Shown: positions 23,021 to 26,927 of the stretch, in pieces
Layout: every line of letters starts with the position of its first letter
Numbering within the stretch: position 1 is the stretch's first letter
NCBI GenBank assembly: GCA_003568315.1
Contig: PWYL01000059.1
Span: forward strand, 1-38,746
Direction: 5' to 3'
Length of the DNA: 38,746 nt
Source: Mollicutes bacterium
GTDB taxonomy: Bacteria; Bacillota_I; Bacilli_A; Izemoplasmatales; Izemoplasmataceae
Position numbers and translations under genes: made by a program
The notes under the pieces: generated by a model
What the model was told of the DNA's origin: nothing
Seen by the model: the letters and a program-made list of their open reading frames with translations, nothing else
Databases searched by the model: none

Positions 23021-23496
23021 TGCATGTCCAAATCATAGCCGTAGGGAAAATCAAGAAAGAGCCCATTCGCGAAGCCATCGCCGAATATGAGACCCGGCTG
23101 ACTGCCCAGATGAAGGTGGAAGTGACGGAAGTCGCGCCGGCCCGACTTTCTTCCGATCCTTCACAGAAAGAAATCCAAAAAGCCAAGGAAAAAGAGGGCG
23201 AAGCACTCCTCGCCAGAGCCTCCGCAGGCTACAAGGTGGCCTTGGACCAACGAGGCAGGATGACAGACAGCGAATCCTTCGCCCGTCTTTTGCGTGATGT
23301 GCGCGATTTCCGGGGTGGCCGCTTCGTCTTTTTCATCGGTGGCTCACACGGTCTTTCGCGTGAAGTGCGAAAGACGGCCGACCTTGTCCTCTCGTTCTCG
23401 AAGATGACCTTTCCGCACGAGCTTTTCCGTTTGATCCTTATCGAACAATTATACCGAGGCATGAAAATCCTCCAAGGTGCGGCATATCACAAATGA
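23017..23496 (+). CDS. rlmH: 23S rRNA (pseudouridine1915-N3)-methyltransferase
   Basis: 159 residues, the exact size class of RlmH (YbeA/YydA), a SPOUT-fold homodimer that methylates pseudouridine 1915 in helix 69 of 23S rRNA. Hallmarks: IIAVGKIKKE at the start, VALDQRGRMTDSESFA, the knotted SAM pocket FFIGGSHGLS and the C-terminal LSFSKMTFPHELFRLILIEQLYR. The ATG overlaps the xerC stop (ATGA); a second in-frame ATG follows at 23020. It is the last gene of the trmFO-xerC-rlmH unit. Confidence 0.96.
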   Translation: MMHVQIIAVGKIKKEPIREAIAEYETRLTAQMKVEVTEVAPARLSSDPSQKEIQKAKEKEGEALLARASAGYKVALDQRGRMTDSESFARLLRDVRDFRGGRFVFFIGGSHGLSREVRKTADLVLSFSKMTFPHELFRLILIEQLYRGMKILQGAAYHK

Positions 23497-23704: not shown

Positions 23705-23770
23705 GTTTCGGATGAAAGCCTCATGAGCGGAAATACTTTCTTCGCACCTCTTTTATTCTTTGCCACTTTT

Positions 23771-23811: not shown

Positions 23812-25116
23812 ATGCATGAGATGATGTTCAAAACCTTGTTGAAACCTCGGACGGCTCTGATTTTGATGTTCTTGATCCTTTTCGCGATGGCCTTCTTTTT
23901 TGACGATGCATCAACGATCTATCATGGCTATATCGCCATCTTGAAGAGTCCGAGCATCCTGATAAGCGACTATCTGGAGATCGGCGGCTTGGGTGCAACG
24001 CTTTTTAATGTCGCCACCATCCTCCTCATCAACGTCATCATGATCAGTTTCTTGAAAACGAAGATGTCCGGACCCGTTTTCGCCGGCATTTTGACGATCG
24101 CCGGCTTTTCTTTCTTCGGCAAGAACATCTTCAACACCATCCCCATCTATGTCGGGATATATCTATATGCCCGGTTGCAGAAACTCGACTTCAAATCCTT
24201 CCTCATCGTCGTGCTTTTCTCGACGGGTATCTCGCCTGTCGTCAGTTTCATGATCTTCGGGATCGACTGGTCGGGATGGTTCCGATTAGCCCCCTTTTGG
24301 AACTATTGGATAGGCATCCCCGCGGGTGTCCTCGTCGGCATTTTCACGGGGTTCGTCCTGCCGGCGCTTTCCGCCCACACGATCCGCTTCCACAAAGGCT
24401 ACAACCTCTACAATATCGGGTTCGCGATGGGAATCCTCTCCATGCTCTTTTCCGCCCTGTTCAGAAGTTTCCGGGCCATCGATCTCGACCAGGGTGGCCC
24501 CACGAGCGAAGCGTACCATGCGGAGTTGATGGTTCTGACGATCGTTTTGTCACTCATCTTCATCGCCATCGCCTACATCAACGATCCGCGGGTGCACAAG
24601 AAGTACATCGGGCTCATGAAGTCGTCGGGGAGACTCGTTTCGGATTTCATCCGTGATTACGGCCGCAGCGTATCCATGCTCAATGTCGGCATCATGGGAC
24701 TGCTTTGCGCACTGGTGCTATGGCTCCTCGGGTTCGAGATCAACGGACCCATGATGGGCGCCATTCTGACGGTGATGGGTTTCGGCGCTTTCGGAAAGCA
24801 TCCCAGGAACTGTCTTCCGGTGATGCTTGGGGCCTATCTCGCAGTCGTACTCACCGACTACACTTTCGATGGCATCGGGATGATGATCGCCATACTCTTC
24901 GTGACGGCCGCTTCCCCCATCGCGGGCCGTTACGGCGTGCTCATCGGCATTTTGGCCGGTTTCATCCACGTGGCCATCACACCGTTGGCTCTCGTGTTCC
25001 AAGAAGGCGGCTTCAACCTCTACAACAACGGTTTCGCCGCCGGCTTCGTGGCGGCCTTGATGGTTCCGTTCCTTGAAGCGCTGACCAAGAAGAACAATGA
25101 GGAGGAAGAGGAATGA
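23812..25116 (+). CDS. DUF1576-like polytopic membrane protein
   Basis: About 434 residues with roughly ten to twelve hydrophobic segments and a Glu-rich tail (NNEEEEE). I place it in the DUF1576 family of Bacillota membrane proteins of unknown function, from overall look. It has an internal duplication: MSGPVFAGILTIAGFSFFGK with NTIPIYVGIYLYA in the first half matches INGPMMGAILTVMGFGAFGK with NCLPVMLGAYLAV in the second, and KGYNLYNIGFAMG matches GGFNLYNNGFAAG. Paired repeats with conserved polar NLYN motifs suggest a two-fold transporter. ATG 23812 follows GGGGGG closely; ATG 23821 is an alternative. It overlaps the next gene by four bases. Confidence 0.75.
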   Translation: MHEMMFKTLLKPRTALILMFLILFAMAFFFDDASTIYHGYIAILKSPSILISDYLEIGGLGATLFNVATILLINVIMISFLKTKMSGPVFAGILTIAGFSFFGKNIFNTIPIYVGIYLYARLQKLDFKSFLIVVLFSTGISPVVSFMIFGIDWSGWFRLAPFWNYWIGIPAGVLVGIFTGFVLPALSAHTIRFHKGYNLYNIGFAMGILSMLFSALFRSFRAIDLDQGGPTSEAYHAELMVLTIVLSLIFIAIAYINDPRVHKKYIGLMKSSGRLVSDFIRDYGRSVSMLNVGIMGLLCALVLWLLGFEINGPMMGAILTVMGFGAFGKHPRNCLPVMLGAYLAVVLTDYTFDGIGMMIAILFVTAASPIAGRYGVLIGILAGFIHVAITPLALVFQEGGFNLYNNGFAAGFVAALMVPFLEALTKKNNEEEEE

Positions 25117-25463
25117 AGAGACAAGAAATCCGCATTCTCACAATGATCATCCGCGAATTGAGCCTTGTGATGTTGATGAACAATCACGACACGTTTTCCG
25201 TCACCCTCGAGAAACGCCCCAAGGAGACCCGGTTCATCCTGAAGACGGACACCCTCGCCGACGAGTTGTTGACGCGCATGCAAGAAAAAGTGAACCGGGA
25301 GCGGGAAATGGAGGTGGAAACCTACGGCTGGGAACTCGTGGGTGATGTCGATAAGCAAAGCGAATTCGAGATTCTCGGGTTGTTGATCGACTATATGGAG
25401 GTTGAAGAGACGGATGGAGAAATGGTGCTCACTTTCGTGAGAAAAAGCATGTACAGAGAATGA
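25113..25463 (+). CDS. Hypothetical protein coupled to the DUF1576-like gene
   Basis: 116 residues, soluble, with no signal peptide and no motif I recognise. The start (ATGA overlap with the upstream stop, GAGGAAGAGG just before) shows tight translational coupling, so a functional link with the membrane protein is likely. Predicted layout: helix (EIRILTMIIRELSLVMLMNN), two strands (DTFSVTLEKRP, TRFILKTDT), helix (LADELLTRMQEKVNREREME), then a strand-helix-strand end. It could be a cytoplasmic regulatory or assembly partner (inference). Confidence 0.75.
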   Translation: MKRQEIRILTMIIRELSLVMLMNNHDTFSVTLEKRPKETRFILKTDTLADELLTRMQEKVNREREMEVETYGWELVGDVDKQSEFEILGLLIDYMEVEETDGEMVLTFVRKSMYRE

Positions 25464-25916: not shown

Positions 25917-26927
25917 ATGCCCAACATGAAACGAATCATGATACTTGTCCTGGTTTTGTTGTTTCTCGTGTTCGGCGCCACCGCCGGATACATCATCCTG
26001 CTTGATCTGAGTTTTGTGGATGCCCTCTATATGACCATCATCACCATCTCCACCGTGGGCTACACCGAAGTGGCCGAGATGACAAAAGCGGCCCAAGTTT
26101 TCTCCATCTTTGTCATCGTGACAAGTGTCGGTACGGTGGGATTCGTCATATCGCGGATCGGGGCGTTTTTCACGCGCGGCCATCTGAACGAAATCTGGAG
26201 GCGAAACAGAATGGAAAAGAACATCGAACATCTGAAAGACCACTATATCATCGCCGGATCGGGCGAGACCGGATTCTACATCATCCAACAGTTCCAAAAC
26301 CGGGGGGTGCCCTTTGTCGTCATCGAGAAGGACTCCGAAGTCATTGAAGAACTGAAAGAGGCCGAAGTCGACCACATCGCCGGCGACGCGACCCATGAGG
26401 AGGTGTTGCGGCGTGCACACATCGAACGGGCGAAAGGACTCGTCGCGACCCTTTCCAAGGATGCGGACAACGTGTTCGTCGTGCTCACCGCCCGCCAGAT
26501 GAACAAGAATCTGCATATCGTCGCCCGGGCCATCGACAAGAACGCCCACCAGAAACTCAAGCGGGCCGGGGCGAACTACACGGTCTCCCCGAACGAGATT
26601 GGCGGCAGGAAGATGGCCGCCATGATGTTGAAACCTTCGACGACGTATTTCATGGAAAACATCATCCACACGGAAGACATCACATTGGAACTCGAAGAGA
26701 TCGAGATTTTTCCCAAATCCCGCTTGTGTCATAAAAGACTCGAAGAAGCGCGTATCTCCGACAGGACCGGCCTCATCGTCCTGGCGATAAAACATGATGA
26801 GGACGAAAAATTCCGTTTCAATCCCCGTGCCGAAGAAATCCTGTCGCCTCATGACAAGATCATCGTCATCGGCCAACAGGACCAGATTGACACCTTGAAA
26901 GACCTTGCCAAAGAACAGGCGGAATGA
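25917..26927 (+). CDS. Potassium channel with RCK (TrkA-N/TrkA-C) domains, MthK-like
   Basis: 336 residues. Two transmembrane helices (about 5-25 and 60-85) flank a pore loop with TISTVGYTE, a K+-filter-type TVGY. A Rossmann RCK domain follows: YIIAGSGETGFYIIQQF (GxGxxG), acidic end VIEKD, HIAGDATHEE and ARAIDKNAHQKLKRAGA. A TrkA-C-like domain with LGAIKHD-type strands ends the protein (HDKIIVIGQQDQID). It fits ligand-gated K+ channels rather than KtrA, which has no membrane part. Start at ATG 25917 (AAGAGGGG upstream); ATG 25926 is possible. It is the only RCK protein near ktrB. Confidence 0.88.
   Translation: MPNMKRIMILVLVLLFLVFGATAGYIILLDLSFVDALYMTIITISTVGYTEVAEMTKAAQVFSIFVIVTSVGTVGFVISRIGAFFTRGHLNEIWRRNRMEKNIEHLKDHYIIAGSGETGFYIIQQFQNRGVPFVVIEKDSEVIEELKEAEVDHIAGDATHEEVLRRAHIERAKGLVATLSKDADNVFVVLTARQMNKNLHIVARAIDKNAHQKLKRAGANYTVSPNEIGGRKMAAMMLKPSTTYFMENIIHTEDITLELEEIEIFPKSRLCHKRLEEARISDRTGLIVLAIKHDEDEKFRFNPRAEEILSPHDKIIVIGQQDQIDTLKDLAKEQAE

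Follow-up and report, generated by a model that had tools for sequence, protein, structure and literature searches.

A small soluble protein encoded beside DUF1576 membrane proteins: a candidate regulatory subunit of possible GHKL descent

Soluble domains of the kind that regulate sigma factors are also known to act on transporters, as excerpts of two reports describe for the STAS domain of SulP/SLC26 proteins and for MlaB of the MlaFEDB complex (PMC8256260, PMC7367683). The membrane protein family DUF1576, labelled "of unknown function" by Pfam, appears neither under that name nor as PF07613 in any paper of the literature searched, from which most subscription-journal papers are absent. A member of this family, no different from the rest of it, is encoded in the 38,746-nucleotide stretch of DNA analysed here (the window), which comes from a 1.41 Mb genome in 83 contigs. 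The gene downstream of it encodes a 116-residue protein that we call SML, and the pair is laid out as follows:

23812–25116, + strand: DUF1576 membrane protein, 434 residues, a probable inverted-repeat transporter (PF07613, E 7.4e-101), with topology predicted from hydropathy and loop charge
25113–25463, + strand: SML, small soluble partner, 116 residues, modelled as two beta hairpins and four helices (pLDDT 78)
25100–25105 and 25113–25116, + strand: AGGAGG and the ATGA stop/start overlap, probable signs of translational coupling

The DUF1576 reading frame starts at ATG 23812, with an in-frame TTG also present at 23770, and the SML start lies inside the DUF1576 stop codon (ATGA, a 4-nt overlap), just as the initial annotation had read it. 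Such a stop/start overlap is found in 24 of 25 distinct DUF1576–SML pairs, the remaining pair being 2 nt apart when the first start codon is used. An rlmH-like gene (ending at 23496) flanks the pair on one side, and a K+ channel/TrkA-like gene (25917–26927) on the other, about 450 bases downstream. The named relatives that carry SML are metagenome-assembled genomes titled Mollicutes bacterium and Candidatus Izimaplasma.

The pair is real, conserved and, within reach of the searches made, undescribed. An SML profile (A4) found matches in 42 of 395 genomes of the class, and 40 of these 42 matches lie directly downstream of a DUF1576 gene on the same strand (gap below 250 bases), spread over eight family codes (f1, f2, f10, f14, f16, f19, f21, and f22); the other two, in G406 (E 6.6e-5) and G105 (E 8.4e-4), are both weak. 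The small soluble-looking partner proposed in the initial annotation thus keeps its neighbourhood in many genomes, and the comparison suggested there, of small genes beside DUF1576 across genomes, comes out in its favour. DUF1576 itself is present in 42 of 90 genomes of the order (41 over the cut-off), in 80 of the 395 of the class (74 over the cut-off), and in 44 of 392 in an overlapping set drawn from the phylum (42 over the cut-off). A single-sequence search for SML gave a match in 33 of the 90 order genomes, a six-frame scan with its profile recovered it at 26 of the 30 loci from the order, where one of the misses lies at a contig end, and at 14 of the 29 from the class, and it was found in 27 of 40 DUF1576 loci hand-picked for diversity and taken with wide flanks. 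About half of the DUF1576 genes are without SML, to judge from 40 adjacent pairs in a class set where 74 of 395 genomes have DUF1576 over the cut-off, and SML is therefore not obligatory.

Outside the class, an Oscillospiraceae plasmid (CP141730, Clostridia) carries the pair, with SML at E 1.4e-20, and records of Fusobacterium vincentii and Enterococcus gallinarum have DUF1576 without SML; the F. vincentii record NZ_CP084075.1, a "plasmid" of 2.1 Mb, is probably a chromosome. The pair also occurs in OR847155.1 and OR849191.1, with an identical SML in both (E 3.4e-20). These are unverified wastewater contigs labelled Listeria phage, and they resemble pieces of a bacterial chromosome. No relatives were found in the viral contigs searched.

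A tree of 44 DUF1576 proteins, 29 with SML and 15 without, requires seven changes of the label, at least six of them forced by well-supported branches, with six long-branch rows unsurely placed. The simplest reading of these sequences is that SML would be an old partner lost several times, gains also being possible. In the window's own genus, one DUF1576 match is split over frames beside an SML match containing one TGA (G073:C7:39068-40455), and another DUF1576 match contains a stop (G076:C14:60366-60976); either both genes are decaying jointly or these are assembly errors. In G033 (L022/L130), a hydrophobic protein of 235 residues stands in the place of SML, with a 4-nt overlap with the DUF1576 stop.

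The membrane protein is a full member of PF07613 (335.5 bits against a curated cut-off of 25), and it contains two copies of the 178-position unit, each half passing the cut-off:

23914–24465, + strand: repeat unit 1 (PF07613, E 4.6e-57)
24589–25077, + strand: repeat unit 2 (PF07613, E 5.3e-46)
24070–24123, + strand: motif GPxxAGILTxxGFxxFGK, copy 1, GPVFAGILTIAGFSFFGK, residues 87–104 (G87, G103, and K104 invariant in 22 homologues)
24745–24798, + strand: the same motif, copy 2, GPMMGAILTVMGFGAFGK, residues 312–329 (G312, G323, and G328 invariant in 22 homologues)
24403–24426, + strand: motif NLYNxGFA, copy 1, NLYNIGFA, residues 198–205 (from the translation)
25015–25038, + strand: the same motif, copy 2, NLYNNGFA, residues 402–409 (from the translation)

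Aligned as profiles of 44 homologues, the N half and the C half match with Prob 99.9, P 1.2e-36, and a score of 234.6 (hhalign), while the N half against 100 column-shuffled C halves gave a mean score of 14.5 and a maximum of 22.7. The repetition of the two halves noted at the outset, with both of its motifs present twice, is thus borne out. Because PF07613 matches twice, the Pfam family is itself already the repeat unit and so implies the duplication, which is nothing unusual in a transporter family.

Sequence searches of the PDB gave nothing significant for DUF1576, SML, or the profiles A1, A4, and A5. An AlphaFold2 model of DUF1576 built from four sequences was too poor (pLDDT 53), and the Foldseek and VIA lists derived from it were discarded. 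Internal repeats with half-helices are a feature of UppP, DUF368/PopT, and UraA. DUF1576 may resemble them in this; its profiles gave only background scores against all three (PF02673, PF04018, and PF00860), in a comparison in which UppP and DUF368 find each other (P 5.7e-6); a shared fold is possible. For kinship with urea transporters there is a single sub-threshold PF03253 match in 247 genomes.

Topology was predicted from three sources combined: hydropathy, loop charge, and the helices that the poor model shows. The mean net charges over 44 homologues are +1.7, +1.8, +2.3, +0.8, +2.2, +0.3, and +0.2 in the predicted internal loops and −1.7, −0.5, −0.7, −0.1, −0.6, and −0.2 in the external ones, and the predicted cytoplasmic loops exceed the external ones in all 44 homologues; the charges were partly used for the inside/outside assignment and then compared, so the same data serve both ways. 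Equivalent loops of the two halves carry opposite charges, as an inverted repeat predicts: for the TM3–TM4 loop the values in the N and C halves are +2.3 and −0.6, and for the loop that precedes the unit's second helix they are −1.7 and +2.2. Against a simple opposite-charge rule stand the GKN/GKH segments, which carry positive charge in each half (+1.0 and +1.6); we counted them as membrane, where an inverted-repeat reading must place them. The charges suggest, on balance, that the two halves form an inverted repeat, and the two-fold pseudosymmetry first proposed from the motifs gains support from the repeat itself.

The predicted cytoplasmic loops also hold most of the positions that best tell SML-bearing from SML-less DUF1576 proteins, and the linker between the halves is a candidate contact site:

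24580–24663, + strand: predicted cytoplasmic linker, residues 257–284 (mean net charge +2.2 in 44 homologues)

Among the top 25 positions that discriminate the two groups, 14 fall in predicted cytoplasmic loops, ten in the membrane, and one in external loops, and several of the best lie in this linker. Of two groups of 13 proteins each, matched in diversity, the SML-bearing one has 0.24 bits less entropy in the cytoplasmic loops, which are thus better conserved, and 0.08 bits more in the external loops. The difference of 0.32 bits was reached in none of 500 label shuffles (one of 500 with ten proteins in each group, two of 500 with eight), shuffles that ignore phylogeny; moreover, the loop boundaries were set from hydropathy, model helices, and charge after the first list of discriminating positions had been seen, so that this test is not blind. 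Six sister comparisons point in the same direction as the entropy, with summed changes of 83.7 versus 56.6 in cytoplasmic loops, 41.0 versus 45.0 in external loops, and 160.5 versus 138.1 in the membrane; as a phylogenetically independent test these six pairs are not significant (Fisher P 0.17 and 0.10), three of the six showing no excess.

Neither Pfam nor NCBIfam has a family whose cut-off SML passes, whether the window protein is searched or further members (25 against Pfam, 27 against NCBIfam), and it has no PDB relative by sequence. The initial description of the partner as having no recognisable family therefore holds at the curated cut-offs of both collections, neither of which contains this family of small proteins. 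Names suggested by weak matches, namely HisRS (4 of 25 members, best E 0.011), DUF4440 (1 of 25, E 0.001), EboE (5 of 27, best E 0.0061), and the PADLOC model Drt5 (0.0019), were rejected; these matches are scattered and lie under the cut-offs or, in the case of PADLOC, are weak, and so were taken as chance, as was an NCBIfam histidine-kinase model (1 of 27 members, E 0.0011, under the cut-off), even though this last one agrees with the reading favoured below. Eleven positions are conserved in at least 36 of 42 distinct members: I12, E15, R64, E67, E69, Y71, W73, L75, G77, D93, and R110. An AlphaFold2 model from four sequences (pLDDT 78, falling to 60 over residues 71–80) has the order helix-strand-strand-helix-helix-helix-strand-strand, and the protein is probably cytoplasmic, to judge from its sequence. 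Two of its segments bear on the fold:

25146–25187, + strand: helix 1, which lines up with the GHKL N-box (Glu15 is retained; the Asn position is F/Y in most members and V in the window)
25296–25346, + strand: signature RERxxExExYGWELxGD, residues 62–78, the most conserved stretch, modelled with lower confidence

The model points toward the GHKL fold without settling it. Roughly 20 of the 50 Foldseek matches listed have entry titles that name GHKL kinases (chain identity unchecked), including one whose title we take to refer to such a kinase, and all E-values are 0.04 or worse. In VIA, chains of GHKL entries reach Z 5.0 (79–84 residues, 3.0–3.5 Å), and a PilO chain ranks first with Z 6.4 (81 residues, 2.9 Å), so that the fold search alone does not decide. 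GHKL families in Pfam gave no match up to E 1 for the window SML and 25 members. A profile comparison of 39 SML with 30 HATPase_c_2 (PF13581) domains aligned them over the full length, with the register that a GHKL domain should show (score 23.1, P 0.0025, Prob 11.8%). All nulls stayed below this score: the best of 200 shuffles reached 20.2, the best of 56 decoy windows 17.2, the reversed alignment 14.8, and an ACT alignment 14.4. With the 42 distinct members the figures are 21.9, P 0.0039, and Prob 8.6%. Subsets of SML (18.6 and 20.1) or of HATPase (17.3 and 19.8) aligned over part of the length, with scores that the upper end of the null also reaches. Forty random subsamples, drawn from 44 SML rows, two of which duplicate proteins of the same genomes, gave a mean of 22.1 (16.7–31.9) against a shuffle mean of 11.4 (at most 17.4). 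The full-length register recurs in 24 of the 40, and the weakest subsample (16.7) scores less than the best shuffle (17.4).

In this register the likeness to SpoIIAB/RsbW proteins extends to the N-box glutamate (Glu15 in 38 of 42 distinct members), an HG[YF] turn, and a C-terminal LxxxGxLID hairpin, and the helix and strand order of the model agrees with what we take to be the GHKL order. The nucleotide site is what differs: the N-box asparagine that serves Mg/ATP is missing, position 19 being F/Y in 39 of 42 members and V in the window; the DxGxG and GxGxG boxes are missing too, with no glycine in more than 20% of the 42 members over positions 28–70, and only Gly89 above that level over 79–92; and the RExxExExYGWELxGD helix sits where the ATP lid is in SpoIIAB and RsbW. 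Alignment and model together suggest a degenerate GHKL/SpoIIAB-like domain that would have neither the ATP-site asparagine nor the glycine boxes, and we regard GHKL origin as an evenly balanced proposition. Since sporulation is reported lost in Izemoplasmatales in the excerpt available of one study (PMC10868615), a sporulation role for such a protein is unlikely here.

We consider it slightly favoured that DUF1576 and SML form one functional unit in which SML acts on its partner; that SML directly regulates transport has somewhat less than an even chance. An assembly chaperone or structural subunit, serving folding or stability of DUF1576 rather than its regulation, is the strongest competitor. 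Adjacency, the start/stop overlap, and the loop data fit it equally, absence from many lineages would suit a dispensable assembly aid, and nothing specific speaks against it, sequence being unable to separate an assembly role from regulation; we give it an appreciable minority share. A signalling arrangement, in which DUF1576 would be the sensor or carrier of a ligand and SML the relay to a protein encoded elsewhere, in the manner of anti-sigma factors or kinases, draws on the resemblance of SML to SpoIIAB/RsbW, yet the replaced ATP-site asparagine and the lack of conserved glycines at the glycine boxes make it improbable.

Simple co-transcription of two genes that do no joint work is very improbable. 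Other neighbours do remain together within a single genome family, and where a cluster reaches seven of the 40 diverse loci, it reflects synteny in the family to which the window belongs; but no cluster apart from SML exceeds seven loci when neighbour genes are grouped by clustering, SML tracks DUF1576 through eight family codes and onto the Clostridia plasmid while the surroundings change, and 40 of its 42 matches in the 395 class genomes adjoin DUF1576. No riboswitch serving the pair was found at Rfam gathering thresholds in these loci (flanks of about 1.5 kb) or in the window; a T-box at one locus (L017) lies downstream of the pair.

Within f22, genes named by resemblance as UppP-like (five loci) and PAP2-like (six loci) adjoin the pair, and in five loci (L144, L145, L146, L152, and L158) the order is UppP-like, DUF1576, SML, PAP2-like, close together. 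The window genome has a gene of the DUF368 family (G000:C27:7290-7997), a family of the undecaprenyl phosphate translocase type, and lacks any UppP match, which is odd for a reportedly wall-less lineage. A role of the pair in lipid-carrier recycling, with DUF1576 as an undecaprenyl phosphate flippase-like protein, is suggested by the f22 neighbours and is rejected as a general explanation, with very little probability left to it, on the restriction of those neighbours to f22 among the 40 loci, the lack of any PF02673 match in the window genome, the background profile scores, and the loss of peptidoglycan reported for Izemoplasmatales in the available part of the same study (PMC10868615).

Our best reading of these sequences is a secondary transporter served by its own regulatory subunit in the cytoplasm, which may be a GHKL pseudo-ATPase. 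DUF1576 would be the membrane part, made of two fused units of about seven segments each that, going by the loop charges, run in opposite directions through the membrane, and a shared path would be lined by the symmetric motifs GPxxAGILTxxGFxxFGK and NLYNxGFA, an arrangement like that of secondary transporters or channels. Because its gene starts at the overlapping DUF1576 stop, synthesis of SML is probably coupled to that of the membrane protein; SML would most likely bind the cytoplasmic loops, above all the linker between the halves, to stabilise or gate the transporter. With several lineages lacking it, SML would modulate rather than drive transport. As a protein it is probably a GHKL domain, on weak to moderate evidence, in which nucleotide binding was lost and the ATP lid was swapped for the RExxExExYGWELxGD helix. 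The joint claim, that a SpoIIAB-type GHKL domain without its ATP site was recruited as a dedicated cytoplasmic regulatory subunit of the DUF1576 family, is a tentative one that we hold to be more doubtful than its parts. In any case, an uncharacterised membrane family gains a conserved partner, and with it a concrete handle on its function.

The STAS domain has the fold of SpoIIAA, the antagonist, and not that of SpoIIAB, and DUF1576 matches neither the SulP nor the ABC families of Pfam; in both respects the DUF1576–SML pair, as read here, differs from SulP–STAS and MlaB. What would be new here is the dedicated partner SML and its possible descent from GHKL regulators. The likeness is a working one, a sigma-regulator-type soluble domain placed on a transporter, as parts of two reports describe for SulP/SLC26–STAS and for MlaB in MlaFEDB (PMC8256260, PMC7367683). 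If our proposal is true, an ATP-less GHKL subunit on DUF1576 mirrors the SpoIIAA-type STAS domain of SulP transporters, and, given GHKL origin, the STAS and the GHKL fold, which make up the SpoIIA sigma switch, would both have been reused in transporter control.
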